A stretch of DNA of 60,621 nt. It comes from Ignavibacteriota bacterium (GTDB taxonomy: Bacteria > Bacteroidota > Ignavibacteria > UBA10030 > SZUA-254). A program made the position numbers and the translations under genes. The stretch spans positions 1 to 60,621 of the forward strand of contig JANYJZ010000029.1 in the NCBI GenBank assembly GCA_025358305.1, read 5' to 3'. This document shows positions 42-56,743 of the stretch, one piece after another. The notes under the pieces were generated by a model that did not search any database, was not told the origin of the DNA, and was given only the letters and a program-made list of their open reading frames with translations. Each line of letters begins with the position of its first letter. Positions within the stretch are counted from its first letter, which is position 1.

Positions 42-70
42 TTGACATTTGAGCGGGGAATTGATACAAT
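42..70 (+). promoter_or_regulatory. Sigma-70 type promoter of the T9SS protein gene
   Basis: A perfect -35 box TTGACA (42-47) is separated by exactly 17 bp from TACAAT (65-70, one mismatch to TATAAT). Transcription would start near 77, giving a leader of about 108 nt before the ATG at 185. Confidence 0.8.
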
Positions 71-184
71 AAGCAGGACATTGTCATCCGATTGTCCCCT
101 TTATGCCTCATTTGCGCGGGTTCCTTGCGACTTGACTGCCATCGCGCAAGTTTCTCACCCTGTTCCTTCATAGGAGCTCCTTGT

Positions 185-3100
185 ATGCATCTTCGTTCAG
201 CGTTCTGGCTCTTCCTCTGCGGTCTCGTCCTTGTCGCGTTGTGTCCCGAGAAGGGCCAAGCACAGGTGTGGCGCAAGCTCCACACGGCGGTCGGCTTCAA
301 CGTCGGGATCAACCCCCTGAACTCGAACACGTTCTACTGCGAGGGAACCTCCGGACAGGTGTGGATCTCCCGCGACAGGGGGCTCAACTGGTCGACGATG
401 GGCACGACCGTGCCCACATCCGGGATGCGCCATATCTTCGTCGCTCCGCGGGACACGATGACGGTCTTCGTTGTCGCTTTCTCCGGCGGGCTCTGGAGGA
501 CGACGAACGAAGGGGCAACGTGGACGCAGGTCATCGGCGGCGCCTACGGCATCGACGGCGAGAGCATGGACTACGACAAGGTCCACCCCGACACGATGTT
601 CGCGGGCAATTACAGCGACGGGTCCGTGTACCGAAGCCTGGACCGCGGCGTGACGTGGACTTTTCGGGGCATCTCCGGCCCCAGGCTCTGTGCGTTGACG
701 GTCCGTCCCGACAGTTCAAATATCATTTTTGCCGGGACAAGCGCCAGCACCATTTCGAAAAGCATCGACTACGGCGCGACCTGGAAGGTCGTGAACAACG
801 GCGGTGTGCAGGAGGTCCCCAAGCTCGTGGTGAACCCGAACAACCCGCTCATCGCCTATGCGACGACGAACAGCAACGGAGACCCTGCGCTCGATTCCCT
901 CTGCTCTTTCTGGAAGACGACCGACGGAGGGGAGACGTGGTTCAAGACGGCACTGCAGAAGCTCGCAAACTGGTCCGCGGCCATGGACGTCCAGCATCCG
1001 GAGACCCTGTGGGTCGGAAAGTTCGGCGCAGGCGTGACACTGAGCGGCATGACGCGTACGACCGACGGCGGAGCGTCCTTCAAGGATTATAACCGCGGGA
1101 TCCCCGCGAACTTCGATTCCTGGAACCTCCGCGTCCACCCGCTCGATCCGACGGTCGTCCTGCAGGCCGGGACGATCAATGCATTCGGCCCCGGCGGCGT
1201 CTACCGCTTCATGGATACCTCGGCGACGAGGGTGCAAGGAACGGTACGGGACTCCGTCACGCACGCGCTCGTCAAGGCGACCCTGACCCTCATCAATGTC
1301 CCCGACTCGATCTATCAGCGGAGCACGTACGAGTTCGGCTATTATCCGGGCGATCCCACGCTCACACCGACCGTCCATATAGAGGCCCCGGGATACTACC
1401 CGAAGGACACCGTCCTGGTGTTCGTCAACGGCACTGTCCAGACGCATGACATCCTTCTCACTCCTCTGCCGTTCAACTCGATCAACGGCTCCGTCTATTG
1501 GGATGCGACTGACAATGGAGTGAAAGATCCGGGAGATCCGCTCCTCTCCGGCTGGCAGATCAATCTCAGCGGCCCGGTGAGCGGTTCCACTCTCTCCGAC
1601 GCGCAGGGGAGATTCTTCTTCGACTCGCTCTCCACGGGAACGTACACGATAACCGAGACCGTGCCGGCAGGCTGGGTCCAGGGCGCCACACCGTGCGGAT
1701 TCTCCTATACGATTACCTTTGTCGCGGGTACGAGCGTCGAGGGTGAGGACTTTGGGAATATCGAAATGGACCCCGGCGCCCAGCTCCTCTTTGAGGATTT
1801 CACGACGCCGACCTTCCCCCCGCCATGCTGGTCCATCCAGGATATCAACGGCGGCTTGACATGGCATCGGATCACATCCAATAATCATTCGGAGCCGGCT
1901 TCCGCCCGCGTCGGAGTCGGCAACCTCGGCGAAGGGAAGCACGACGATTGGCTCTTCACCCGGCCCATGCAATTGAAGGCGGGAAACACATATACGCTGA
2001 GCTGGTGGGAGCGGACATTTGTAAACGGGGCAGCGACCGGAATCGACAGCCTCGCGGTCGCGGTGGGGACAGCGCAGAATGCCGCCGGCATGACACACGT
2101 ACTGAGTTCCCGCGGAATCAATACGAGTCTCGCCTACGCGTTCGTCACTCAATCATTGACAGTGAGCTCCGACGGCGTGTACTACATCGGATTTCATGAC
2201 TTCTCCGCTGACGGCAACACCTTGCGTATCGACGACGTGACACTGACGTTTGGGAGCAGTTTTGCCACCGGGTCCATCAGCGGTACGAAGTTCAATGACA
2301 TGAACGATAACGGCATCATCGACGGTCTCGACGTCGGCATCCAGAGCTGGAAGATCAGGCTCTCCGGCGATGCGGTTGATTCGACGCTCACTGACATCAA
2401 CGGCAATTACACCTTCTTTGCACTTGCTCCCGGAAACTACACCGTGAGCGAGGCGGCCCAGCCCGGCTGGACGCAGACGTTCCCGCTGTCCGGGTCCTAT
2501 TCGATCGTCCTTGGCGCCGGTCAGAACCTGCCGGGGAGGAGTTTTGGGAATTTCCACCCGAACACCATCATCGTGCGAAATTTTGAGGATGCCGACGGCA
2601 ACCTCGCAACGACGGGCGACCGCACGCCGAAGCCGTGGCACCTCGAAGTGCAGTTTTCGACGGCGACGGGGCCGGTGGTCGTCATTACGTCGGGGGAGAC
2701 CGGCAATCTCAGCGTAGGAAACCTCCCGTTGGACGATTACGCCGCGGCCGCGGCCGATAGCGCCGGATGGATCCGGCTCGGATACGCGATCGACGGCGTG
2801 GATTACGCGAGCAATGATTCACTCGTCGAGGTGGACGTCGTCAGCGGCGAGACGCACACAATCGACTTCATCAGCGCATCGCCCGCCTACAGCCGGCGCA
2901 TGCGCACCGCTTCAGCAAAAGGTTGGGCCACGGCGGTCGACAAGGCATTGAAGCCGAAGTCGGTGAAGCGAAAGGCGGACAAGGTGGACTTCAAGATGAG
3001 CCTGTCGGTCTCCACGACGGCGATGCCGGTGCTCGAACTCAAGTTCAATATGGCGATCGAGCATCTGACGGTGTACTCGTCGGTCGCCAAGAGCGATACC

Positions 3101-4315
3101 CTCCCGTATTCCGCGCTCACGATCGATCCAAAACGGAAGCTGTGGACCTATACGTTCAGTCCGGCCCCCGTAGCGAGTACGACCATCCAGGTCGACGGGC
3201 GGGGATTGACGGGAAAACTCGTCAAGGCCAGTTACGTATGGTCGGATCCCGTGGCCGCGACGAAGCGCAAGGGGACGGTACCCGACCTCGCGAGCAGCTT
3301 CATCCTCAACGTACCGGGCCTGCCGAAACCGAACCTCAACAACGTCGGCGAAGAGCTCTTCCCGAGCGGGTTTGGCCAGGCGTCGCCGTACTTCGGCGCC
3401 GGCATGCTCGTCGGGGTTCCCCAGGGCGCGAAGCTCGCCCAGTCGGTGCGTCTGACGAAATATACAAACCTCCATAAGTCGCTCATCGTCGACAAGACGG
3501 GGCAGATGCATGCGAGTCTGAGCCTCACCTGCCTCGATTCCACCGACGACGGCAAGCCGATCACAAAGCAGATGAGCGTCCTTCCGCCGACGAAGCAGGA
3601 CAACCTCCTCTTCGCCGAACTCGTCGCGCTGAAGCTCAATGTCGCATCGAGCGTCATGGAGAAGTTCCCCGGCGGGCTGGGGGAACTGACGTTCGTCGAC
3701 ACCGCGCTCGGGGGGAACCCGTTCAACGGTCAGATGGTGAGCGACATCGTCACGAAGGCGGATTCCATGCTCTCCTGCCTCACGCTGACCTCGAAGGTCC
3801 CGGTGCCGACGCTCTCGGATCTCTACGACGTCCTCCACAAGCTCAACGCGGCGTTCTCCGATTCAGTGAACGACAAGGATACGATCAGTTTCGCGGCGAA
3901 GACGAAGCTCACGGGCGTCCGCCGTCTCATCGACGTGCCGTATCTCCGGACGACCCCCGGGATCGCGCCGGTCATCATGGCGTCCCCGCCGGTCGTCGAA
4001 GGGCTGGTCCCGTCGACGCTCCTACTGTCGCAGAACTATCCTAATCCCTTCAACCCGACGACGACGATCAGGTTTGCACTCCCGTCGATGTCCGTCGTCT
4101 CGCTGAAGATCTACAACATGCTCGGTCAGGAGGTCGCGGTCTTGATCAACAGGGAAGTAGTGGATGAAGGAGAGAGCGAGATCGAGTTCGACGCCGGCCG
4201 GCTTCCCTCGGGCGTCTATTTCTACCGTCTCGTCGCGAACGAACTCTCTGAGGATGGCGAGGCCACGGTCGGTCAGCCGATGACGAACGTGAAGAAGATG
4301 ATTCTCGTGAAGTAG
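185..4315 (+). CDS. Large secreted Asp-box / SdrD-B protein with T9SS C-terminal sorting domain
   Basis: Predicted cell-surface or secreted protein of 1376 residues, exported by Sec and then the type IX system. The ATG at 185 is chosen over an upstream in-frame TTG at 92 because AGGAG lies about 8 nt before it and the N-terminus is a classical signal peptide ending near GQAQ. Residues about 55-305 carry at least six Asp-box motifs (S/T-x-D-x-G-x-T-W, e.g. TTDGGETW), a beta-propeller signature. Then come an SdrD-B-like domain (about 430-505), a choice-of-anchor-J/MAM-like domain (about 530-690), a second SdrD-B domain (about 696-766), a long unassigned region, and the sorting domain from about 1279 (QNYPNPFNP; LPSGVYFYRL). 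No catalytic site is recognisable. Surface adhesion or polymer binding is inference. Confidence 0.85.
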   Translation: MHLRSAFWLFLCGLVLVALCPEKGQAQVWRKLHTAVGFNVGINPLNSNTFYCEGTSGQVWISRDRGLNWSTMGTTVPTSGMRHIFVAPRDTMTVFVVAFSGGLWRTTNEGATWTQVIGGAYGIDGESMDYDKVHPDTMFAGNYSDGSVYRSLDRGVTWTFRGISGPRLCALTVRPDSSNIIFAGTSASTISKSIDYGATWKVVNNGGVQEVPKLVVNPNNPLIAYATTNSNGDPALDSLCSFWKTTDGGETWFKTALQKLANWSAAMDVQHPETLWVGKFGAGVTLSGMTRTTDGGASFKDYNRGIPANFDSWNLRVHPLDPTVVLQAGTINAFGPGGVYRFMDTSATRVQGTVRDSVTHALVKATLTLINVPDSIYQRSTYEFGYYPGDPTLTPTVHIEAPGYYPKDTVLVFVNGTVQTHDILLTPLPFNSINGSVYWDATDNGVKDPGDPLLSGWQINLSGPVSGSTLSDAQGRFFFDSLSTGTYTITETVPAGWVQGATPCGFSYTITFVAGTSVEGEDFGNIEMDPGAQLLFEDFTTPTFPPPCWSIQDINGGLTWHRITSNNHSEPASARVGVGNLGEGKHDDWLFTRPMQLKAGNTYTLSWWERTFVNGAATGIDSLAVAVGTAQNAAGMTHVLSSRGINTSLAYAFVTQSLTVSSDGVYYIGFHDFSADGNTLRIDDVTLTFGSSFATGSISGTKFNDMNDNGIIDGLDVGIQSWKIRLSGDAVDSTLTDINGNYTFFALAPGNYTVSEAAQPGWTQTFPLSGSYSIVLGAGQNLPGRSFGNFHPNTIIVRNFEDADGNLATTGDRTPKPWHLEVQFSTATGPVVVITSGETGNLSVGNLPLDDYAAAAADSAGWIRLGYAIDGVDYASNDSLVEVDVVSGETHTIDFISASPAYSRRMRTASAKGWATAVDKALKPKSVKRKADKVDFKMSLSVSTTAMPVLELKFNMAIEHLTVYSSVAKSDTLPYSALTIDPKRKLWTYTFSPAPVASTTIQVDGRGLTGKLVKASYVWSDPVAATKRKGTVPDLASSFILNVPGLPKPNLNNVGEELFPSGFGQASPYFGAGMLVGVPQGAKLAQSVRLTKYTNLHKSLIVDKTGQMHASLSLTCLDSTDDGKPITKQMSVLPPTKQDNLLFAELVALKLNVASSVMEKFPGGLGELTFVDTALGGNPFNGQMVSDIVTKADSMLSCLTLTSKVPVPTLSDLYDVLHKLNAAFSDSVNDKDTISFAAKTKLTGVRRLIDVPYLRTTPGIAPVIMASPPVVEGLVPSTLLLSQNYPNPFNPTTTIRFALPSMSVVSLKIYNMLGQEVAVLINREVVDEGESEIEFDAGRLPSGVYFYRLVANELSEDGEATVGQPMTNVKKMILVK

Positions 4316-36136: not shown

Positions 36137-38818
36137 CTACCGGGTCTCGATCCCCGGGGCGATGTTCACCTGGAGCTTCTGCTTTTGCGACGTCTTGCCG
36201 TACGACATCGTGACCGTGTATTCGCCGCTCGGCACGAACTTCTGGCCTTCCCCGCCATACCCGTTGAGGAGGTCTTGGGTCATCTTCAAGTCCCACGCCA
36301 CGCGGTTGAGCCCCGGCGTGCCGGGGCCGCTCAGATTCGCGACCGTCTGACCGGCCGTGTTCGCGACGGAGATCTTCACGCCGTCACCGGTGAAATCCTT
36401 CACCCAGTAGGTCATGAGTGCGCCGTCCGGGGGGTTGGGCCCGCGGAAGACCGTTCCGCCGGTCCAATCGACGGAACCGGGGAGGGGATAATACCCGCTG
36501 GCTGCCCGCAGTGTAAAGAGGTGCGCAGGCTTCTCGCGGATGGAGTCCGCGAGCTCCTCCAGGGCCCGGATGTCGTCGATGACGAAGATGCTCCGGCCGT
36601 GCGTGGCGACGACGAGGTCCCGGTCGCGCGGATGGATGGCGATGTCGTCGACGGCGACTGTCGGCATCTCGCCGAGCCGCGTCCAGTTCGCCCCGCGGTC
36701 GAGCGAAACGAAGAGGTGGAACTCCGTTCCGGCGAAGAGGAGGTTCGGGTTTTGCACGTCCTCGCGGACGACCTTCACCGGGCCGTCGGCGGGGAGGTTC
36801 CCGGCGATGCTCTGCCAGCTCTTGCCGCCGTCGGAAGTGCGGTAGACGAGCGGCGCGTACTTCCCGGAGCGGTGACCGTCGACGGCGAGGTATGCGACCT
36901 TCGCGTCCTGATGTCCGGGTTCGATCCGGCTCATCCACATGTCCTTCGCTTCGCGGGGCAGGCTCCCCGTGAGGTCGTTCCAGTTGATCCCGCCGTTCTC
37001 CGTCATCCAGAGTTTTCCGTCATCGGTCCCGGCCCAGAGCATCTGCGGCATGAGCGGGGATTCGGCGAGCGTATAGACAACGCCGTAGTTCTCCGCTCCG
37101 CTGCCGGTCGTCATGATCCGCGCGGGGTTCTGTGTGGAGAGATCAGGGCTGATGGGGCTCCAGTGCTCGCCCCGGTCCGTCAGCCGAAACACCCTGTTGC
37201 CGGCGAGATACATCGTGCCCTTCGCATGGCGGCTCGCGATGAACGGCGAGTTCCAGTGGAACCGGAACGCCGGCTGTCCTTCCGCAGGTTGCGGCCGAAG
37301 GTCCTTGAACTCGCCCGTGGCGAGGTTCAGCCGGTGGATGTAGCCTTCTTGGGATTCCCCGTAGACCGTGGAGGAGTCGAACGCATCGAACACGCAGTAG
37401 AATCCGTCCCCGCCGCCGATGTTGATCCAGTCGGAATTGACGATCGCGTCGCGGGTCCGGGTCATGCTCGGTCCGACCCAGTTGAGGTTGTCCTGCAGCC
37501 CGCCGGCGATCCGGTACGGGGTGCTCATGTCGAGCGTGATCCGGTAGAATTCACCGGCTGCGATGCGGTTGAGGTGCTCCCAGCCTTTGCCGCCGGCGAG
37601 GCTCTTGTAGATCCCGCCGTCGGTGCCGAGGAGAAGCTTCTGCGGATTGCGCGGGTCGATCGCGAGGGCGTGCAGGTCCGGATGGACCTTTTCGAAGTAA
37701 TCCTCCCGAAACGTCTTGCCGCTGTCCTCCGAGACGTGGAATGCGAACCCGAGGACGTAGACCTTCTTGTCGTTCGTCGGGTCGACCCGGATCTGACTGA
37801 AGTAGAACGGCCTGGGATCGAGGGGACTCATGCGCGTCCAGTGCTCGCCGGCGTCGTCCGACCGAAAGACACCGCCGCTCTTGCTTCGGACATTGTCGAT
37901 GTTGGAGGTCCCGCCGTCGTCGCTCTGGACGACGGCGTAGACGATGTCGGGATTCTTCGCGTACAGGGCGAGCCCGATGCGCCCGGTGCGCTTGGGCAGT
38001 CCGGTCTCAAGCTTCTTCCATGTCGCGCCTCCGTCGGTGCTCTTGAAGATGCCGCCGAGATCCTTTCCGTCGGTGAGGGGGGGGCCTGAGGTGAAGGACC
38101 ACGCCGTGCGCTGGCGTGCGTAGAGCGCCGCGTAGAGCACGTCGGGATGCGTCGGGTTCACCGCCACGTCGCCGCAGCCGACGAGGCTTTCGTGCGAGGG
38201 CGCGTTGAGGACGAGCTTCCAGTTCTTCCCTGCATCCGTCGTCTTATAGAGTCCGCGCGCGGCTCCGGGCGTCCAGAGGTCGCCCATCGCGGCGGCCCAC
38301 GCCGTCGTACTGTCCGTGGGATGGACAGCGATCCTGGCGATGGTTTTCGTCTCCTTGAGGCCGGTGTTCTTCCAGCTGCCGCCTCCGTCGGTGGAGAGGT
38401 ACACGCCTTTGCCCCAGCTTGAACTGTTCCGGTCGTTCGCTTCGCCGGTCCCGACCCAGACATACTTCGCATTCGACGGAGCGATCGTCACCGCGCCGAT
38501 GGCGGCCACTTCCTCCTTGTCGAAGATGCCGGAGAAGGAACCGCCGTCGTTCGAGGTCTTCATCAGTCCTCCAGTGCCGAGGGCGACGTAGAATGTGTAC
38601 GGATCGGTCGGGTCGATCGCGATGTCGGAAACGCGGCCGCCCATGACCGCCGGGCCGATGCCGCGGGCTCCAAGCGACTTCAGGGCGAACTCCTCGATCG
38701 GTTTCGATGCCCCGGATCGGTGATCGAGCGCTGCGGCGGGTTGCGCCAGGAGCGCGATCGAGACAAGGGCGAACAGGATGCGTGCGGCCTGGAGCCGCTG
38801 GCGGGACGCGTGCGTCAT
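36137..38818 (-). CDS. Secreted Asp-box (BNR/VPS10-like) beta-propeller protein
   Basis: Exported protein of 893 residues; ATG at 38818 with GGAG upstream and a signal peptide ending near PAAALD. Many Asp-box/BNR repeats (e.g. STDGGGSWK, TTDAGKNWK, STDGGATWK, DDAGEHWTR, TSDGGKSWQ) imply one or two large beta-propellers of the sortilin/'exo-alpha-sialidase-like' kind. The C-terminal ~80 residues (ISVANTAGQTVANLSGPG...GEYTVTM) resemble a FlgD-type Ig domain. No sialidase catalytic residues can be assigned, so an enzyme name is not justified. There is no T9SS sorting domain. Its own promoter is at 38881-38909 and its terminator at 36065-36101. Confidence 0.85.
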   Translation of the reverse strand: MTHASRQRLQAARILFALVSIALLAQPAAALDHRSGASKPIEEFALKSLGARGIGPAVMGGRVSDIAIDPTDPYTFYVALGTGGLMKTSNDGGSFSGIFDKEEVAAIGAVTIAPSNAKYVWVGTGEANDRNSSSWGKGVYLSTDGGGSWKNTGLKETKTIARIAVHPTDSTTAWAAAMGDLWTPGAARGLYKTTDAGKNWKLVLNAPSHESLVGCGDVAVNPTHPDVLYAALYARQRTAWSFTSGPPLTDGKDLGGIFKSTDGGATWKKLETGLPKRTGRIGLALYAKNPDIVYAVVQSDDGGTSNIDNVRSKSGGVFRSDDAGEHWTRMSPLDPRPFYFSQIRVDPTNDKKVYVLGFAFHVSEDSGKTFREDYFEKVHPDLHALAIDPRNPQKLLLGTDGGIYKSLAGGKGWEHLNRIAAGEFYRITLDMSTPYRIAGGLQDNLNWVGPSMTRTRDAIVNSDWINIGGGDGFYCVFDAFDSSTVYGESQEGYIHRLNLATGEFKDLRPQPAEGQPAFRFHWNSPFIASRHAKGTMYLAGNRVFRLTDRGEHWSPISPDLSTQNPARIMTTGSGAENYGVVYTLAESPLMPQMLWAGTDDGKLWMTENGGINWNDLTGSLPREAKDMWMSRIEPGHQDAKVAYLAVDGHRSGKYAPLVYRTSDGGKSWQSIAGNLPADGPVKVVREDVQNPNLLFAGTEFHLFVSLDRGANWTRLGEMPTVAVDDIAIHPRDRDLVVATHGRSIFVIDDIRALEELADSIREKPAHLFTLRAASGYYPLPGSVDWTGGTVFRGPNPPDGALMTYWVKDFTGDGVKISVANTAGQTVANLSGPGTPGLNRVAWDLKMTQDLLNGYGGEGQKFVPSGEYTVTMSYGKTSQKQKLQVNIAPGIETR

Positions 38819-38880
38819 GGGAACATCTCCTCTGGGTGTCAGTCGTGCCCCTCGGGGAAGGGGGGCAGTAGTTGGGGAAT

Positions 38881-38916
38881 AATATACACGATTGGCCGGG
38901 TGCATGCAACACCCGG
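38881..38916 (-). promoter_or_regulatory. Promoter with inverted repeat around the -35 box
   Basis: Minus-strand TTGCAT (38904-38909), 17-bp spacer, TATATT (38881-38886). CCGGGTG (38896-38902) and CACCCGG (38910-38916) form a 7-bp inverted repeat that brackets the -35 box, the expected position of an operator. It could alternatively help stop transcripts of the upstream expansin-fusion gene. Confidence 0.6.
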
Positions 38917-38942
38917 ATACAAACGGCGACGGGCCTCCGATT

Positions 38943-41699
38943 TTACGGGAATTGGGAGGTCCCGGGGACGGTCGTGTCCGCAGCGGGGGCGATGCCGGTG
39001 TCGATCAGGACGTTTCCGAAGATATCGGTGACGCGGAAGGTGTAGGGGCCGGGCCCCATCCCGCTCGCATTGAGGAAATAATTGTACGACGTGCGCGTCA
39101 CGCTCTTGTAGACGCCGGGACTCACCATATATTCGAACTGCGCGATCGGGTTCCGGGCGTTGCGGACCTGCACGGCGGTCCACCACTGGTTGCTCCCGTC
39201 CTTGAAATGGTAGGCGATGGGTCCGGCCACGGCGCAGGGTCGCAGGTGCCACGAGATGGGCACATGCCCGAGCGGAATGTCCCCGACCAGCGCGAACGCG
39301 GTCGGACTGAGGTCGATGCCTCCCAGCGCGCACCCCGCACAGCGGTCGACGATGCGGATGTCGATCGTGCCCTTCGGCCCGGTGACCGTGGCGCACGCTC
39401 CGCAGATCGCAGAGTTCGCGTATTCGGTCGCGTTCATCGCGCCGACCAACAGATCGTTCGGCGTCGGGTCGAACATGCAGTTCCCGCCGCCGTCCGCGAA
39501 GGTGTAGTACGTGGCGGTGCCCGTATGCACGGCGGACATGAGGCCGGCGGACGTGAGGACAAGAGTGCCGGGCGTGCCAACCTTCACCCAGTACGCGCCG
39601 CCCGGAACGAGTGTATCCGCTCCAAAATATCCGCCGTCGTATCCGTAGAACGCCGACAGGACGATTCCCGGAGGATTTTGGATGATCGCTGCAACAGGCA
39701 CGCGCGCCGCGACAGTACCGATCATGTTCCACCCGGCCTTGACTGCGACCGAATCTGTCTGGACCGGCGTGCCAGTGAGCGCTACCTGCTGGCTGTCGCT
39801 GAATTTGATCCAGTATCCCGTGCCGACCACGAGGGAGTCCTTTTGCAGGTATCCGGCGGACGGGTCATAGGTGAACGCGGCGGATGTCGCGGTGGGAAAG
39901 AGCACGCTCATCCTGGGATCGGGGACGGCAAGGGGGAGCGAGACCATGTTCCACGATTTCCGGACCGTGTAGGCGGCGCTGTATGTGCTCCCGGTCGTGA
40001 ACGCGCGGACCGAAGAGTATGGTCCGTAACCCGCTGCGTTCTTGCCTCGGACATGCCAATAGTAGAGCGTACTGACCGATAGACCCGAGATCTGGTGGAC
40101 CGTGTCGGCAATGAGCGAATCGTCGGCCAGGGGAGAGGCAAAGAGCGAGTCCGTGCCCACCTGGATCTCGTAGGTCGCGGCGCCGCTCGCCGTCTGCCAC
40201 CGGAGACTCAGCACGGTCGGCTGGTCGGCCGCGCCAGGCGCGGGGGCGACAAGAAACGTCGCCGACGGGGGCACGGCGGGCACTGTAGTGGTGAAACTGC
40301 GAGTTCCGGAATAGGGACCCGACCCCGCGCCGTTCTTCGCGCGGACCCTCCAGGAAAAGGTGGTGGAACCGACAAGCGGGCCCACCTGGAGGAGAGTATC
40401 GGTGAGTGTGGAGTCGTCCACGACGGTCGAAGCGAACGAGGGGCTCGTCGACACCTGGAGACGGTAGGATGTCGCGCTGAGCGAAGGCCCCCACGAGAGG
40501 GACGGAGTGAGGCTCACGCCGGTCGCTCCGCTCCCCGGCTGGTCAAGGACCGGCGCTGGGGGCGGCGTGAGCACGAGCTTGTACACCTTCCCGGAATAGA
40601 CCCCGCAGACATAGATCTCTCCCGATTGGTCGAGTCCAAACGAGGAAATGTTCACTCCCGTGTTGAACAGAAAGGTGTTGGTAGGACCGCCGAGGGCGAG
40701 GCGGTTGAACGACCAGATCTCCCCTGTGCAGTAGTCTCCGTAGATGTACGTACCGTCAAGCGCTGGCAGCGCGCTTCCCCGGTAGAGAAAGCCTCCGGTG
40801 ATCGAACACCGGCCGCTCACATGCTCGTAATCGAAAAGTGGCAGGTCGATGCCGGTGGTATCGTAGGAGTTGAAACAGTGGGAGCCTTCCAGGAGGTTCC
40901 AGCCGAGGTTCGCGCCGTTCCTGATCGTGTCGATCTCCTCCCACGTCCCCTGGCCGACGTCGCCGACCCAGAGCGTCCCGCCTCCTGCAGGGTCGAAGCT
41001 GAAGCGCCACGGGTTGCGGAGCCCGTACGCGTAGATCTCTTGCCGCTTCCCGGAGAGATTTCCGGCAAAGGGATTCGACGGTGGGATCGCGTAGTTGTTG
41101 CCGTTCGAGGCCGCATCGACGTTGATGCGGAGGATCTTCCCGAGAAGGACGGACGTGTTCTGGCCGTTGTTCAGTGGATCGCCTCCGCTCCCGCCGTCCC
41201 CCATGCCGATGTAGAGATATCCGTCGGTGCCGAAGGCGAGCTGGCCGCCGTTGTGGTTCTCGTAGGGTTGCGCGATGGTGAGGAGGACGAGCTCGCTTCC
41301 CCGCACGACGGAGTCCGGATTCGAAGCGCTCACCTGGAAGCGCGAGATGACGGTCCTGAGGGGGTTGTCCCTCGTGTAGTCGACGTAGATGTAGCGGTTG
41401 GAGGCGAACTGCGGATGGAAGGCGAGACCGAGAAGGCCCAGTTCTCCGCCGCTTACGATGCTGTCGGTGAGATCGAGGAACGTCGCGGTCGTCGTCTGCA
41501 CGGGATTGTTCGGAAAGACCTGGACCGTGCCCCCCTGCTCGACGACGAAGATCCGATCGGATGCGTCCTCTGCGTGGTAGAGGCCGACCGGAGAGTTGAA
41601 GGAGAGGTTCGGAAAGACGTCGACCTTGTCGTACTGCGCCGACCCGCGTGCTGCACAGAGCAGGAGGGCGGCTGCGATCAAGAGGACAGGGGATCTCAT
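38943..41699 (-). CDS. Secreted glucose/sorbosone dehydrogenase - fibronectin III (x2) - expansin fusion
   Basis: Protein of 918 residues; ATG at 41699, signal peptide ending GSAQ. Domains: a glucose/sorbosone-dehydrogenase propeller (about 20-365; LGLLGLAFHPQF, NHNGGQLAFGTDGYLYIGMGDGG region, RNPWRFSFDP); two fibronectin-III domains (about 370-555); a region with two WNM(V/I) repeats (about 565-710); and a C-terminal bacterial expansin of about 210 residues. The expansin part keeps the barrel landmarks GTATYY, GPKGTIDIRIVDRCAG (catalytic-type Asp) and GIDLSPTAFALVGD, and in the second domain the WWTAVQVRN pair and TSYNYF, which correspond to the polysaccharide-binding Trp-Trp and Tyr of EXLX1. 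It starts within the acetyltransferase stop (ATGA) and lacks a T9SS domain. Confidence 0.88.
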   Translation of the reverse strand: MRSPVLLIAAALLLCAARGSAQYDKVDVFPNLSFNSPVGLYHAEDASDRIFVVEQGGTVQVFPNNPVQTTTATFLDLTDSIVSGGELGLLGLAFHPQFASNRYIYVDYTRDNPLRTVISRFQVSASNPDSVVRGSELVLLTIAQPYENHNGGQLAFGTDGYLYIGMGDGGSGGDPLNNGQNTSVLLGKILRINVDAASNGNNYAIPPSNPFAGNLSGKRQEIYAYGLRNPWRFSFDPAGGGTLWVGDVGQGTWEEIDTIRNGANLGWNLLEGSHCFNSYDTTGIDLPLFDYEHVSGRCSITGGFLYRGSALPALDGTYIYGDYCTGEIWSFNRLALGGPTNTFLFNTGVNISSFGLDQSGEIYVCGVYSGKVYKLVLTPPPAPVLDQPGSGATGVSLTPSLSWGPSLSATSYRLQVSTSPSFASTVVDDSTLTDTLLQVGPLVGSTTFSWRVRAKNGAGSGPYSGTRSFTTTVPAVPPSATFLVAPAPGAADQPTVLSLRWQTASGAATYEIQVGTDSLFASPLADDSLIADTVHQISGLSVSTLYYWHVRGKNAAGYGPYSSVRAFTTGSTYSAAYTVRKSWNMVSLPLAVPDPRMSVLFPTATSAAFTYDPSAGYLQKDSLVVGTGYWIKFSDSQQVALTGTPVQTDSVAVKAGWNMIGTVAARVPVAAIIQNPPGIVLSAFYGYDGGYFGADTLVPGGAYWVKVGTPGTLVLTSAGLMSAVHTGTATYYTFADGGGNCMFDPTPNDLLVGAMNATEYANSAICGACATVTGPKGTIDIRIVDRCAGCALGGIDLSPTAFALVGDIPLGHVPISWHLRPCAVAGPIAYHFKDGSNQWWTAVQVRNARNPIAQFEYMVSPGVYKSVTRTSYNYFLNASGMGPGPYTFRVTDIFGNVLIDTGIAPAADTTVPGTSQFP

Positions 41700-42242
41700 A
41701 TGGGCGTATCTCCTTTTATCTTGGCGTATGAGTAGCAGTCTCTCGGCAGGTCCGACCCCGCGTGGTACATCCACCGGCGCAAGACTCCTCCGCGCGATAG
41801 TCCGACTTTCTCCAGCACCCGGACCGACGCGCTGTTGTCGATGTCGCATACCGCCCAGAGGCGATGGATGCCCTTCTGGTCGAGCGCCAGGGCCGATTCT
41901 GTCGCGTAGCCCTGATTCCAGTGCGTGCGGGCGATGACGTACCCGAAATCGGCCCGCGGGGGCGTGATGCGCGGAGCGATCATGCCGATCATCTCTCCCG
42001 GGCCCTTGGTCTCGATGGCCCAGGTGAATTCCGTCCGCTGCTTCCAGGCGTCCGCGGTGCGCTTCAGGAACTGCCGCGTTTCGCCGATGTCGCGGTGCGG
42101 CGACCAGAGAAGGTACTGCGTGACACCCGGATCCTGCGCGTAACCCCTGAAGACGGCCTCTGCATCGCCCGATACCGGCGGCCTCAGGCCAAGCCTCTCC
42201 GCCCGAGAATCTCTCGGGAGGTATGGGAGTCTCGAGGTGCAT
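41696..42242 (-). pseudogene. GNAT acetyltransferase (RimJ/RimL type), apparent N-terminal frameshift
   Basis: The conceptual product begins MHLETPIP at an ATG (42242) with AGGGA upstream and a promoter behind it. About 10 codons in, the family sequence moves to another frame: LGLRPPVSGDAEAVFRGYA, then QYLLWSPHRD, FTWAIETKGPGEMIGMI, GYVIARTHWNQGYATES (acetyl-CoA loop) and NSASVRVLEKVGL, to the stop at 41696-41698. The break coincides with a perfect palindrome (42202-42218); removing 19 nt around it restores one frame. It may be a true pseudogene, a sequencing error, or a gene with a non-standard start. The stop overlaps the expansin-fusion start (ATGA). Confidence 0.6.
42202..42218. repeat. 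Perfect short palindrome at the acetyltransferase frame break
   Basis: CCCGAGA (42202-42208), ATC, TCTCGGG (42212-42218). It lies exactly where the GNAT reading frame changes. Confidence 0.6.
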
Positions 42243-45905: not shown

Positions 45906-46409
45906 ATGCAGATCTACCTCATGCGCCACGGAACGGCTGTCTCGAAGGGAACCCTCATCTACCCGCACGATGACCGGCCGCTTACTTCCGCGGGCATTCG
46001 GGAAATGACCAAGGCGTCCCGCGGTATGGTGAAGCTCATCCCCTCGCTCGATGCGATCCTTTCCAGCCCGATGAAGCGCTCGTTGAAGAGCGCGGCGATC
46101 GTTGCAGGCGCTTTCGGAGCGGTTTCGCTGGTGAAGGCCAGCGCCTCGTTGCTTCCGGGCGGGGACATCCGCCGAGTCAAGGAGGGTCTCGCGGCGTCGG
46201 GAGCGGACGCGCGCGTCCTTCTCGTGGGGCACGAACCGGACATCGCTCTGCTCGCATCCCTGCTCCTGGGTCTGAGGGCGCCCGTGCTCCAGTTTAAGAA
46301 GGGAGCCCTGTGCAGGATCGACCTCGAGGCTCCGCCGGCGCGGCGCGCCGGAAAGCTGATCTGGCATCTTACATCGAAGCATATGAGACTCATCGCGGAC
46401 GCATCATGA
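45906..46409 (+). CDS. SixA-like histidine-phosphatase family protein
   Basis: Histidine-phosphatase superfamily protein of 167 residues. The RHG motif (YLMRHGTAVSKG), ILSSPMKRSLKSA and the second catalytic His in LLVGHEPDIALLA are intact. SixA enzymes remove phosphate from phosphohistidine on signalling phosphotransfer domains. Following phoB by 15 nt, it could dephosphorylate a phosphorelay, or another phospho-substrate in the operon. Its stop overlaps the first kinase-like gene (ATGA). Confidence 0.88.
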   Translation: MQIYLMRHGTAVSKGTLIYPHDDRPLTSAGIREMTKASRGMVKLIPSLDAILSSPMKRSLKSAAIVAGAFGAVSLVKASASLLPGGDIRRVKEGLAASGADARVLLVGHEPDIALLASLLLGLRAPVLQFKKGALCRIDLEAPPARRAGKLIWHLTSKHMRLIADAS

Positions 46410-47134
46410 TCACTCACTCCAGACGACCAACGTTCTCCGAACCGCATCCCTATCCAGGCCGCCTCATCATCGTCGAAGGGATCGACGGTTCCGGAAAGTC
46501 GACGCAGCTGCAGCTCCTGAACAAGTGGCTCGTGAATTCCGGCTACCGAGTGTTCTTCACGGAGTGGAACTCCTCCGCCCTCGTGAAGGAGACCATCCGA
46601 CGCGGAAAAAAGAGGAATCTCCTCACCCCGACGACGTTCAGCATCCTCCACGCCACCGATTTTGCGGACCGGCTCGTCCATCTCATTGTGCCCCCGCTGA
46701 AGGCAGGAATGATCGTCCTCGCGGACAGGTATGTGTACACTGCCTTTTCCCGCGACGTCGTGCGCGGCGTCCATCCCGCCTGGGTCCGCAACCTCTACGA
46801 GTTCGCGGTGAAACCCGATCTCGCGCTCTATTTCAAAGTGCCAATCGAAGTGTCGCTCAAACGCATCCTCAACGGCAGGATCAATCTCAAGTTCCACGAG
46901 GCTGGCATGGACCTCGGGCTGAGCGACAACCCGAGCGAGAGCTTCAAGCTCTTCCAGAACCGCATCCTCGAGGAGTACGACAAGATCTCCAAGGAGTATG
47001 ACCTCACGGTCATCGACGGGACGGCGACGATCCACAGACAGCAGGAGCTCCTCCGGAAGATGACGAAAGAGATGCTGCAGGACTTCAGGCCGATGCCGTA
47101 CCTACAGAAGAAGGAGAACATCTATGTCCGCTAG
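46406..47134 (+). CDS. Thymidylate-kinase-like P-loop kinase (first of a tandem pair)
   Basis: Protein of 242 residues with a canonical TMPK fold: P-loop IVEGIDGSGKSTQ (about 24), ADRYVYTAFSRDVV (DR motif), and a LID-side segment with HEAGMDLGLS. The bona fide house-keeping enzyme is ~210 residues; this one has N- and C-terminal extensions. Its phosphate-regulon position, between a SixA phosphatase and Ppx/GppA, argues against a simple dTMP role. The start overlaps the sixA stop, and its end overlaps the second copy by 11 nt. The substrate is unknown; nucleotide or polyphosphate-linked phosphotransfer is a hypothesis. Confidence 0.8.
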   Translation: MITHSRRPTFSEPHPYPGRLIIVEGIDGSGKSTQLQLLNKWLVNSGYRVFFTEWNSSALVKETIRRGKKRNLLTPTTFSILHATDFADRLVHLIVPPLKAGMIVLADRYVYTAFSRDVVRGVHPAWVRNLYEFAVKPDLALYFKVPIEVSLKRILNGRINLKFHEAGMDLGLSDNPSESFKLFQNRILEEYDKISKEYDLTVIDGTATIHRQQELLRKMTKEMLQDFRPMPYLQKKENIYVR

Positions 47135-47870
47135 GAAGGGGAAGATCTATTTCGGTACAGGTCTGCCCTATTTCGACGCGTCGGAGATCAAAGGAAAGCT
47201 TATCGTCATTGAGGGGACGGACGGGGTAGGACGCTCCACGCAGATTGAAAACCTCCGTCAATGGCTTGAGATCAAGGGGTACGGCGTTGCGACGACGGGG
47301 TGGACGCGCTCCCCGCTCATCAGCAAGGCGATTGACGATGCGAAAGCCGGCCACACGCTCAATGTCAACACGTTTAGCCTTCTCTACGCGGCCGATTTCG
47401 CCGACAGGCTCGAGAACGAGATCATACCGGCGCTCAAAGCGGGATTCATCGTCATCGCAGACCGGTATATCTACACGGCGTTCGCCCGCTCGATCGTCCG
47501 GGGGGCCGACCCGAAGTGGATCCACAAGGTCTTCGGATTCGCGCTCGAACCGGCGGCCGTCTTTTACATGAAGATCGGGATCGAAGACCTCATCCCGCGC
47601 GTGATCAACAGCCAGACGATGACGAAACGGTATTGGGAGGAGCAGTCGGGTGAGGGTATGGACTACTGGGAGTCCGGGATGGATCTGCGCCTCGGCGAAG
47701 ACTTCTACGACAGCTTCATCAAGTACCAACGCCTCATCCTCCGCGAATTCAATGCGATGGCCCGACGGTTCAAGTTCATCGTGGTTGATTCCTCTATCAG
47801 CTTCGAAGAGACGAATAAAGCGCTCAAACTCGGCATAGGATCGATACTCGAACATGACGAAGCGTCGTAA
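47124..47870 (+). CDS. Thymidylate-kinase-like protein with altered P-loop (second of a tandem pair)
   Basis: Protein of 248 residues, a diverged paralogue of the preceding gene. Shared landmarks are the P-loop region IEGTDGVGRSTQ, YAADFADRLENEIIPALKAG, ADRYIYTAFARSIVRG and WESGMDLRLG. The P-loop lysine is replaced by Arg (GVGRST instead of GxGKST), which usually abolishes or greatly weakens ATP hydrolysis or transfer. This suggests a pseudokinase or regulatory subunit, perhaps pairing with the first copy. It overlaps its neighbours on both sides (11 and 17 nt), so the operon is tightly coupled. Confidence 0.8.
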   Translation: MSARKGKIYFGTGLPYFDASEIKGKLIVIEGTDGVGRSTQIENLRQWLEIKGYGVATTGWTRSPLISKAIDDAKAGHTLNVNTFSLLYAADFADRLENEIIPALKAGFIVIADRYIYTAFARSIVRGADPKWIHKVFGFALEPAAVFYMKIGIEDLIPRVINSQTMTKRYWEEQSGEGMDYWESGMDLRLGEDFYDSFIKYQRLILREFNAMARRFKFIVVDSSISFEETNKALKLGIGSILEHDEAS

Positions 47871-53904: not shown

Positions 53905-55707
53905 CTACTGCTGCGCCTTCTTCATTACGACCTTCATCGTCGTCCCGGCGCCGAGCTCGCTTTCGATCCAGATCTTGCCGCCGTGGGCTTCCACGATCTC
54001 GCGGCATATCCAGAGCCCCAGTCCCGCACCCTTGATTTCCTTCGCTTCCGCGGTGTCGACGCGGGAGAACTTCTGGAAGAGCTTGCTCACCTTTTCCTGC
54101 GGTATGCCGATCCCCTGATCCGCCACCGAGATCATGATCTGCTCGGCCGAGTCGTTCGTCACCGTGATCGTGATCTTTCCCCCCTTCGGCGAATACTTCA
54201 CTGCGTTGCTCACGAGGTTCTGCAGGACCTGCCGGAGCTTCGCCTGGTCACCCTTGATGAACATTGCGTTCGGGTCCACCGTGTACTCGAACAGGTGCCG
54301 GCTCGAGAACTTCACCATCGAGACCGCGTCCTGTATGAGCCGCTCGATGTTGACGATCTTGAAGTAATAGGTGAGCTGGCCCGATTCCATCTTCGTGATG
54401 GAGAGGGTGTCCTCCGCGAGCTGGTTGAGGCGGACCGCCTGGTCGACGATGAGCTGCATGTATTCCTTGCCGCGCGGCACGTTCTGGAGCGCCTCGTTCT
54501 TCAGGAGCGAACGTCCGGCGAGCATGATGCTCGACAGGGGCGACCGGAAGTCGTGCGAGACGATCCCGAGGAACTCCGACTTCAATTTGTCAAGCTCGGT
54601 CATCTTCATATACGCCCTGTTGATCTCGTCGTACAGCCTGGCGTTCTTGATCGCCGAACCGAGCTGGTCGCAGAGCGACCCGAGGACGACCGCGTCCGTG
54701 TCGTCGAAGGCGTGGAGCTTCGTGTCCTCGACGTTGAGAACGCCGATGACCTCGCCGTCGACGGTGATGGGGAGGCTCAGTTCCGATTTCGTGCTGTGGT
54801 ACTCGTATGCGAGGTACCGCGGGTCCTGTGACACGTCGTTCGCGAGGACCCGCTCGCCGTGCTTCACCACCCACCCGATGAACCCGTCGCCGACCTTCTG
54901 GCGGTACCCGTGCGGAAGGAAGTCGACAAAACTTCCGGCGTGCGCTTCGAGGCTGAGATGTTCCCCGTTCTCCGAGAGGAGGAAGATCGTGACGTCGAAA
55001 TAATTGAAGTTCTTCTGGATCGTCGCCGCGGCGAGATGGAGGAGCTCCTCAAGGTTGAGCGTCCCGGTGAGCTCGCCGGAGACCTCGTTGATGAGCTCGA
55101 TCTGCGTGATGCGCTTCCGAGCGTCCTCGAAGACCGAGACGTGCTTCAGCGAGGTCCCGACGTGATGGGCGAAGAGCTGCGCGACCGCCGCGTCCTCTTC
55201 CGTATAGACGTCGCTCATCGTCGAGCCGAAAAGGAGGGACCCGACCACCTCCGTGCCTGTCTTCATCGGAACGATGAGAAACGACGCGACGCCGAACTCC
55301 TTCAGCTTTCCTTCGATGACGTGGCTGAACGCGGGGCCCGAGCCAGCGCCTTCGATGATCGACGCCTGGTTCTTGATGACCCAGCCGAGCATCCCCTCGT
55401 CCATGCTGAAATGTTTGTGGTTGAGATCGGCGGAATCGGCGACGGGCGAAAGCGTCGTGATCACGTAATGGCTGGCGGAGCGATTGGCGATGCCGAGGAG
55501 GCAGACGTCGTACTTCAGGAGCCACTTTGCCTCCGACCGGACCACTTCGAAGATCTCGTCGCGGCTTCCCGCGCGCTCGATCTGGAGCGCGATCTCGAAC
55601 AGGGAGCCGAGCCGGGGGAGGATCGCAGCTCCTTCTGCGGCGAGGCCTTGCGTTCTCGCCTTCACGCTGCCGGAACCTGCTGCTTCGTCTGGTCGGTTGT
55701 TCGTCAT
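53905..55707 (-). CDS. Soluble GAF-GAF-HisKA-HATPase sensor histidine kinase
   Basis: Protein of 600 residues from the ATG at 55707; no membrane helix or signal peptide. Two GAF domains (about 40-190 and 205-365, with LIVPMKTGTEVVGSLLFG and LPITVDGEVIGVLNVED) precede a HisKA domain (H-box GIVSHDFRSPLSS near 397) and a complete HATPase domain (LQNLVSNAVKYSPKGG, ISVADQGIGIP, KGAGLGLWICREIVEAHGG). No partner regulator is adjacent in its operon. It lies next to the pst-phoU genes, and no PhoR is in view, so it may phosphorylate PhoB, but this is speculative. It follows purM by 34 nt. Confidence 0.9.
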   Translation of the reverse strand: MTNNRPDEAAGSGSVKARTQGLAAEGAAILPRLGSLFEIALQIERAGSRDEIFEVVRSEAKWLLKYDVCLLGIANRSASHYVITTLSPVADSADLNHKHFSMDEGMLGWVIKNQASIIEGAGSGPAFSHVIEGKLKEFGVASFLIVPMKTGTEVVGSLLFGSTMSDVYTEEDAAVAQLFAHHVGTSLKHVSVFEDARKRITQIELINEVSGELTGTLNLEELLHLAAATIQKNFNYFDVTIFLLSENGEHLSLEAHAGSFVDFLPHGYRQKVGDGFIGWVVKHGERVLANDVSQDPRYLAYEYHSTKSELSLPITVDGEVIGVLNVEDTKLHAFDDTDAVVLGSLCDQLGSAIKNARLYDEINRAYMKMTELDKLKSEFLGIVSHDFRSPLSSIMLAGRSLLKNEALQNVPRGKEYMQLIVDQAVRLNQLAEDTLSITKMESGQLTYYFKIVNIERLIQDAVSMVKFSSRHLFEYTVDPNAMFIKGDQAKLRQVLQNLVSNAVKYSPKGGKITITVTNDSAEQIMISVADQGIGIPQEKVSKLFQKFSRVDTAEAKEIKGAGLGLWICREIVEAHGGKIWIESELGAGTTMKVVMKKAQQ

Positions 55708-55741
55708 GGTCGCACGATCCTTCCTTCGATGTGGCAAATGT

Positions 55742-56743
55742 TCATTCCGGGACGACGTCGCCGATGACAAACGGCCGTTCGCCCATGTTCTGAAGCGTCC
55801 GGAGGATCTTCTCCGCGCCCGTGTTCGACGCGATGAAGATCAGGCCGACGCCGAGATTGAAGGCCCGCCGCATGTCCTTCTCCGGCACGCGTCCCGTCTT
55901 CTGAATGAGAGAAAAGATGGCGGGACGCTCCCAGCGCCGCCAGTCGATCTTGAGCGCCAGTCCCTTCGGGACGACGCGGGACGTATTGCCGACGATGCCG
56001 CCGCCGGTGATATGCGCCATGGCGTGCAGGCCCGGGACCGACGCGACCGCACGGATCGCGCCGAGGTACGACCGGTGGACCGCAAGAAGGGCCTCGCCGA
56101 GCCGCATGCCGAGCTCGTCGATATGGTCGTCGTGCTCGAACTTTTCAAACAGGACCGTTCTGGCGAGCGAGTAGCCGTTCGTATGGAGACCGGTGGAAGG
56201 GAGGGCGACGAGCACGTCGCCGGCTGCGACCTTCCGTCCGTCGACGATCTTCTTCTTATCGACGACGCCGACGATCATCCCTGCGATGTCGTATTCCTGG
56301 TCCCGGTAGAACCCCGGCATCTCCGCGGTCTCCCCGCCGACGAGGGAGCAGCCGTTCTCCTTGCAGGCGACCACCATGCCGCCGACGACGACGGCGGCGA
56401 CGGCCGGGAGAAGTTTGCCGGTCGCGAAATAATCGAGAAAGAAAAGCGGCGTAGCGCCGCAGACAGCGATGTCGTTCACGCAGTGGTTGACGAGGTCCTG
56501 GCCGATGGTGTCGTGCCGTTCCATGAGGAAGGCGACTTTGAGCTTCGTCCCGACGCCGTCGACGCTCGAGACGAGCACCGGTTCCCGCAAATCCTTGAAC
56601 GAGGCGCTATAGAACGAGCCAAATGCGCCGATGTCGGCCAGAACGGCCTTCGAAAAGGTCGACCGCACGCGTTCCTTGATGCTCCCGACAAAGACGTCGC
56701 CCGCGGCGATGCTGACCCCTGCTTGTTCGTACGTTTTACTCAA
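55742..56743 (-). CDS. purM: Phosphoribosylformylglycinamidine cyclo-ligase (AIR synthetase)
   Basis: Purine biosynthesis step 5, ATP-dependent; 333 residues. The start is a TTG at 56743 with GAAGG at ideal spacing, giving LSKTYEQAGVSIAAGD as the family N-terminus; an upstream ATG (56848) would add 35 unrelated residues. Motifs are clear: SSVDGVGTKLKVAF, VNHCVNDIAVCGATPLFFLDY, LVGGETAEMPGFY, LPSTGLHTNGYSLAR and HITGGGIVGN. A weak promoter candidate (TTGTGC 56811-56816, 18 bp, TATAGT 56787-56792) lies upstream. Confidence 0.95.
   Translation of the reverse strand: MSKTYEQAGVSIAAGDVFVGSIKERVRSTFSKAVLADIGAFGSFYSASFKDLREPVLVSSVDGVGTKLKVAFLMERHDTIGQDLVNHCVNDIAVCGATPLFFLDYFATGKLLPAVAAVVVGGMVVACKENGCSLVGGETAEMPGFYRDQEYDIAGMIVGVVDKKKIVDGRKVAAGDVLVALPSTGLHTNGYSLARTVLFEKFEHDDHIDELGMRLGEALLAVHRSYLGAIRAVASVPGLHAMAHITGGGIVGNTSRVVPKGLALKIDWRRWERPAIFSLIQKTGRVPEKDMRRAFNLGVGLIFIASNTGAEKILRTLQNMGERPFVIGDVVPE

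Follow-up and report, generated by a model that had tools for sequence, protein, structure and literature searches.

Bacterial expansins of the EXLX1 type are built of a D1 double-psi barrel and the domain D2, the latter counted as CBM63 (PMC11040781). In the available portions of the published surveys, an additional domain, in most cases CBM2 or GH5, accompanies fewer than 1% of the surveyed expansins (PMC11040781), about 10% of the bacterial species with an expansin have it fused to a carbohydrate-active domain (PMC7729394), and the fusion partners are GH5, cellulose- or chitin-binding modules, dockerin and F5/8C (PMC5072189). A six-bladed propeller of the glucose/sorbosone dehydrogenase (GSDH) type is tied to a cellulose-binding module in CcPDH of Coprinopsis (AA8-AA12-CBM1); according to the part of PMC5960967 available, removal of CBM1 hurt the work of CcPDH with lytic polysaccharide monooxygenases (LPMOs).

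The window analysed here is a stretch of 60,621 nucleotides, contig JANYJZ010000029.1 of the Ignavibacteriota bacterium assembly GCA_025358305.1. One gene of its reverse strand encodes an expansin preceded by a propeller of the GSDH superfamily, similar to that of hedgehog-interacting protein (HHIP). As far as the sequence can say, this fusion is real, and the partner is new for expansins.

Domain order and the expansin module

The original prediction described one exported polypeptide consisting of a GSDH propeller, two fibronectin type III (fn3) modules, a WNM-repeat region and a complete expansin. This order was borne out in a single reading frame by Pfam and NCBIfam, and a Sec-type signal peptide was recognized by eye. 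GSDH (PF07995) was matched by Pfam at residues 35-323 (E 1.9e-40), while the structure model and fold comparison extend the propeller beyond the end of this match, to about residue 380; fn3 was matched in two stretches (E 1.3e-8), and DPBB_1 remained under its cut-off (20.6 bits vs 28.8). The NCBIfam profile NF041144 (expansin_EXLX1) was matched at residues 727-918 with E 9.8e-69 and 230.5 bits, above the cut-off of 100, over its full length (positions 1-194 of 194), which confirms the expansin assignment of the last 210 residues. The C-terminal end also matched six distinct expansin chain sequences of the PDB, including 9ms5, 4jcw and 2bh0 (B. subtilis EXLX1).

In the alignment with 2bh0, both D1 aspartates of EXLX1-type expansins (D785 and D796) and the aromatic binding line of D2 (W839, W840 and Y872, at the places of Trp125, Trp126 and Tyr157) are kept, as is Lys119, here K833. 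The predicted Trp-Trp/Tyr surface is accordingly present. The aspartate of IVDRCAG, proposed as that of the barrel, is kept as well, but it is D785, the counterpart of D71, whereas the more critical D82 corresponds to D796 in GIDLSP. Both D1 creep residues are changed, Thr14 to Tyr732 and Tyr73 to Cys787. Since cysteine likewise occupies the place of Tyr73 in two expansins of known structure, 4jcw and 9ms5, these changes are considered variation inside the family, for which Thr14 and Tyr73 are not defining. In the available part of PMC5072189, Thr14 and Tyr73 of EXLX1 are given as important for creep, and Asp82, Asp71 and Tyr157 are also named.

Twelve other expansins of the order share 61 invariant positions; the fused copy, whose own branch in the tree is 0.35 changes per column long, keeps 57 of these (0.93; 0.897-1.0 for the others by leave-one-out). 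Cysteines just before the domain and just after QFP are present in all 15 other expansins of the order over the cut-off; neither was found in the fused copy (by eye), as expected if the expansin was cut to fit, and we infer that a terminal disulphide was lost on embedding of the domain. Since D2 is counted as CBM63, targeting would be the simplest function of the module, which perhaps also loosens walls without hydrolysis.

Four of the 15 separate expansins of the order are cargo of the type IX secretion system (T9SS) (L033, L035, L047, L048), and most of the other 11 are lipoprotein-like (by eye). Tandem expansin gene pairs, all apparently lipoproteins, were found in G023 (contig C21, L034) and G028 (contig C16, L032). 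The expansin frame of the same-family genome G012 (L036, 1489-2871, minus strand) contains a formiminotransferase-cyclodeaminase-like stretch followed by a lipoprotein-like expansin and is probably two genes read as one (by eye). For horizontal gain of the expansin the tree gives no donor: it groups the domain with expansins of Ignavibacteria/Chlorobi, but the fork is open (82/33).

Table 1. Positions of the fused gene and its parts in the window
Feature	Position	Strand	Basis
Whole fused gene, 918 codons and stop, one uninterrupted reading frame without internal stop	38943..41699	-	
Shine-Dalgarno-like AAAAGGAG, 5' of ATG	41710..41717	-	by eye
Sec-type signal peptide (residues 1-21) lacking a canonical lipobox; cleavage near GSA/Q	41637..41699	-	by eye
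GSDH-superfamily six-bladed propeller, HHIP-like, residues 22-380	40560..41636	-	Pfam, PDB sequence search, structure model, fold comparison
His149, place of catalytic His (His144 of sGDH)	41253..41255	-	alignment; number from the available text of PMC6881789
Arg228-Asn229, place of conserved Arg-Asn, PQQ site	41013..41018	-	alignment
Two fibronectin-III-like modules, residues 381-573	39981..40559	-	Pfam
WNM module, two repeats, residues 574-722	39534..39980	-	genome search, reading by eye, structure model
Complete expansin (residues 723-918), with D1 (double-psi barrel) followed by D2	38946..39533	-	NCBIfam profile, PDB alignment
Trp839-Trp840, place of EXLX1 Trp125-Trp126	39180..39185	-	alignment
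Asp785, place of EXLX1 Asp71	39345..39347	-	alignment
Asp796, place of EXLX1 Asp82	39312..39314	-	alignment; role from the available text of PMC5072189
Tyr872, place of EXLX1 Tyr157	39084..39086	-	alignment; Tyr157 named in the available text of PMC5072189

In a scan of positions 38600-42000, no promoter site was found; the one terminator-like site inside the gene was under the shuffle mean of 1.3 and was not used.

The propeller and its cofactor site

Against PDB sequences, the N-terminal part matched HHIP first, followed by 3das, 2ism and soluble glucose dehydrogenase (sGDH); by sequence, HHIP is clearly ahead of any dehydrogenase (5.6e-34 vs 9.5e-19). The AlphaFold2 model of residues 21-380, built with 21 sequences, had a predicted local distance difference test score (pLDDT) of 86.6 and a predicted template modelling score (pTM) of 0.90, with model residues 150-159 below 50. 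In VIA-align, the best chain was HHIP (Z 39.9, root-mean-square deviation 2.6, 333 residues aligned, 31% identity). The HHIP entries ranged over Z 36.0-39.9, the lower of them tying with the best dehydrogenases; bacterial aldose dehydrogenases and sGDH reached Z 33.9-36.1, and AA12 Z 27.8-29.3. Foldseek placed all listed HHIP chains above the dehydrogenases. A comparison of the propeller profile with four aldose dehydrogenases gave a probability of 100 and E 1.5e-47, and the NCBIfam profile of glucose/sorbosone dehydrogenases dependent on pyrroloquinoline quinone (PQQ), TIGR03606, was far under its cut-off (73 vs 435). The propeller keeps 44 of the 45 positions invariant in 20 relatives. Two GSDH/HHIP-like frames in tandem were found in each of the loci L013 and L009.

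For sGDH, His144, Lys377 and Arg408 are named in the available part of PMC6881789. His149 and Arg228-Asn229 align with the catalytic histidine and the Arg-Asn pair and are invariant in 21 of 21 aligned rows. The place of the PQQ-pairing lysine is occupied by Cys324 and those of the two C-terminal arginines by Asn350 and Ser352 (profile comparison), so that half of the residues of the PQQ site are kept; at positions 324, 350 and 352, lysine or arginine occurs in none of the 21 rows, and a nearby arginine occurs at 326 and at 349, in one row each. The other residue numbers used for the PQQ site are Arg406 and Asn229, and the Asd equivalents of Lys377 and the two arginines were placed by motif. 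HHIP has His-Asp in place of Arg228-Asn229; since HHIP is also without the Arg-Asn pair, these residues make the bacterial propeller group intermediate between HHIP and dehydrogenases.

The best match to PqqC in the genome, the sole PQQ-synthesis gene searched for, had 56.2 bits against a cut-off of 240; PQQ could also be taken up. No match to LPMO_10 was found in the genome, and neither an AA8 cytochrome nor a CBM1, as in CcPDH, was found around the propeller in the protein (Pfam, E up to 1). The description of this part as a PQQ-dependent sugar dehydrogenase was therefore not upheld: because the Lys/Arg contacts are lacking, PqqC over the cut-off is absent and HHIP is closer, the propeller is not filed as a PQQ dehydrogenase. 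Sugar oxidation may still exist, since the fungal CcSDH is PQQ-dependent though several usual PQQ contacts are missing from it (PMC4133262, part of the text available). Public records often annotate relatives of the propeller as 'PQQ-dependent sugar dehydrogenase'; this label deserves scrutiny, half of the usual PQQ contacts being absent from all 21 aligned.

Occurrence of the fusion, the WNM module and localization

The fusion was searched for in 98 genomes of the order and in samples of 391 genomes of the class and 395 of the phylum, which overlap with each other and with the order set. Apart from this gene it was found in none of them. The order genomes contain 16 expansin copies over the cut-off in 12 genomes, the others in frames of 242-464 residues; the class genomes contain 18 copies in 14 genomes, other frames being at most 464 residues, and the phylum genomes contain seven copies in four genomes. 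A scan of GTDB r220, which requires one of two exact peptide patterns and misses distant expansins, was analysed for the best 80 of 90 related expansin loci, together with flanking DNA of up to 7 kb per side, shorter near contig ends (952 kb in total). GSDH was found in the frame or nearby DNA of 0 of these 80, the longest expansin frame being 478 residues; as a control, the same GSDH profile detects YliI of E. coli (E 8.7e-43) as well as a homologue from Nonomuraea. No relative was found in viral_contigs; 227 plasmid records gave matches, and in none does a single place span 80% of the query. The database search thus found the same domain order nowhere else in the genomes and loci searched, and a frameshift between the halves in relatives does not arise, as the fusion is absent from all of them.

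Relatives carry the parts of the fusion apart. In a comparison of the whole protein with 60 relatives, 59 match some part, and the best outside its own genome, among the matches listed, is at 53% over residues 22-723 (homologue L003). The source genome has one expansin match and two GSDH matches. With blastp (E 1e-15, two targets for each), seven stretches around propeller or expansin genes of relatives gave no shared neighbourhood: they matched the parts of the fusion, antisense frames of these parts, T9SS tails of the open reading frame (ORF) 65-4312 and, in one weak match (30% over 223 residues), the end of ORF 53908-55839. Elsewhere in the window, two neighbouring ORFs that look like thymidylate kinases (by eye), 46310-47134 and 47124-47870, share a few bases.

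The WNM module has 47 matches in the genome, including this copy, and the nearest other copies are at most 53% identical in protein. Its model is a two-repeat, all-beta structure with pLDDT 88.4 but pTM 0.52, and Foldseek against the PDB gave no match at E 0.001 or better. In 28 of the 30 loci (out of 47) read by eye, WNM leads to a T9SS tail, either at once or with about 110 residues in between; of the other two, one ends four residues on and one, the fused gene, continues into the expansin. In many WNM proteins (L165-L193), WNM and the T9SS tail are separated by an additional conserved block, about 110 residues long, whose motif resembles ELPPAPPAGxFDARFAS.

The four closest homologues of the same family (L003, L004, L005 and L006) have WNM followed by a T9SS tail, in L003 also by Pfam, and two, one, one and no fn3 modules, respectively (by eye). 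The genome contains 112 matches to the T9SS sorting tail PF18962, and none was found in the fused protein by Pfam, PF18962 being the tail type searched for; a canonical lipobox was not recognized by eye. Since neither a T9SS tail nor a lipobox was recognized, contact with external cellulose is not given, and in the absence of a recognized sorting tail the periplasm appears at least as likely a location as the outside.

Explanations and comparison with known systems

The tentatively preferred explanation, which is quite possible but short of probable, is a chimeric exported protein in which the expansin occupies the place of the T9SS tail of the closest homologues and serves the propeller as a binding or loosening module. 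The expansin would mainly be a polysaccharide-binding (CBM63-like), possibly loosening, module; with fn3-fn3-WNM as the spacer, it would keep the propeller at a surface of beta-glucan or peptidoglycan, and there the propeller may bind or oxidize a sugar with some cofactor. Several observations weigh against this explanation. The fusion occurs in a single genome, so there is no proof of its upkeep by selection. No match to GH9 was found in the genome and GH5 has one weak match (23.4 bits, 29.2 with neighbours; cut-off 23.5), so a cellulolytic life is not supported. The more distant same-family homologues L017 and L020 (33-34% identical) end right after WNM without a tail, and L022 is truncated; for these reasons, that the tail was replaced is something we only infer. 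A bolder version, in which the expansin took over the job of the lost secretion tail and parks the propeller on a polymer instead of T9SS anchoring, is quite improbable; in it, the expansin would free single glucan chains and the propeller would oxidize or capture them (cellulose or peptidoglycan), giving oxidative loosening without LPMO.

That the halves do not cooperate, the expansin having come to stand behind WNM by recent deletion or recombination as a functionally neutral or mis-sorted fusion, is somewhat unlikely. The restriction to one genome and the lack of a T9SS tail and of the flanking cysteines are consistent with it, as is the cellulase activity of Clavibacter CelA, which is unaffected by removal of its expansin; the expansin part of CelA is nevertheless needed for disease symptoms, so a fused expansin can matter (both from the available part of PMC5072189). 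It is further opposed by a frame that is free of stops and breaks and by conserved residues that are largely kept despite the long branch: their retention along such a branch indicates that the expansin domain has been under constraint, not necessarily as a fusion, and with 57 of 61 and 44 of 45 invariant residues kept neither half looks decayed. Cellulose loosening by the expansin combined with PQQ-dependent oxidation of sugars or of glucan ends by the propeller is improbable. The GSDH match, the invariant catalytic histidine and Arg-Asn pair and the precedent of CcSDH speak for it, and it is opposed by the absence of lysine and arginine from the three basic positions, by CcPDH, which itself keeps one C-terminal arginine, Arg621 (PMC6881789, available part), and by the results for PqqC, LPMO_10 and cytochrome. 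An assembly chimera of two genes is highly improbable. The joint is found in no second genome, the assembly consists of 42 contigs and is probably a metagenome bin, and third-position G+C content rises from 0.765 in WNM to 0.883 in the expansin, a larger step than between any other modules of the gene, the range of five neighbour genes being 0.816-0.881. The joint, however, is in frame at a domain boundary, G+C content has no break, the codon score of the expansin (0.370) is within that of the five neighbour genes (0.312-0.461), the other WNM copies are at most 53% identical in protein, and the genome has no other expansin match.

The preferred reading of the gene, held with some reserve, is thus a GSDH/HHIP-like propeller that the expansin, as a binding and perhaps loosening module, would direct to polysaccharide. 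Such a propeller adds a partner class to the few natural expansin fusions known, and the fusion is a ready construct for asking whether expansin binding helps a sugar-active domain on a polymer. A described protein of this order was not found in the literature searched, which did not extend to Chase et al. 2020 (New Phytol), by its title reportedly a survey of expansin fusions. Within that literature and the available parts of the published fusion lists (PMC5072189, PMC11040781), the view that the order had not been described holds.

Compared with EXLX1-type expansins (NF041144; B. subtilis YoaJ 2bh0, 4jcw, 9ms5), the module is a complete D1-D2 with the places of D71, D82, K119, the tryptophan pair and the tyrosine kept, but it stands behind a propeller-fn3-fn3-WNM part of 720 residues and lacks the flanking cysteines of its order relatives. 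As in GH5-expansin of Xanthomonadaceae and GH5-CBM2-expansin CelA of Clavibacter, the expansin is a module of a larger exported protein; a GSDH/HHIP-like propeller partner is not listed in the available portions of PMC5072189, PMC7729394 and PMC11040781. The propeller has its best sequence and fold match in HHIP and bacterial HHIP-like GSDH proteins, whereas HHIP has His-Asp at the Arg228-Asn229 place and no expansin. AA12 CcPDH shares the GSDH-type propeller tied to a cellulose-binding module and differs in having a cytochrome, CBM1 instead of an expansin, and a weaker fold match than HHIP or the bacterial enzymes. Pseudoalteromonas WP_237113707.1, with matches to GSDH, CBM26 (three stretches), PKD and cytochrome c, is a bacterial GSDH propeller with carbohydrate-binding modules, which are starch-binding and not an expansin, and is known from annotation alone. 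On the Pseudoalteromonas plasmid pPBSW1 (L197, 1813-7203; scanned stretch incomplete at its end), GSDH, three CBM26 stretches, PKD, cytochrome c and PSD3/PSD5 were found in a protein annotated as 'starch-binding protein'. Since CcPDH with CBM1 and the Pseudoalteromonas GSDH with CBM26 are known, the idea of joining a GSDH propeller to a carbohydrate-binding module has precedents.

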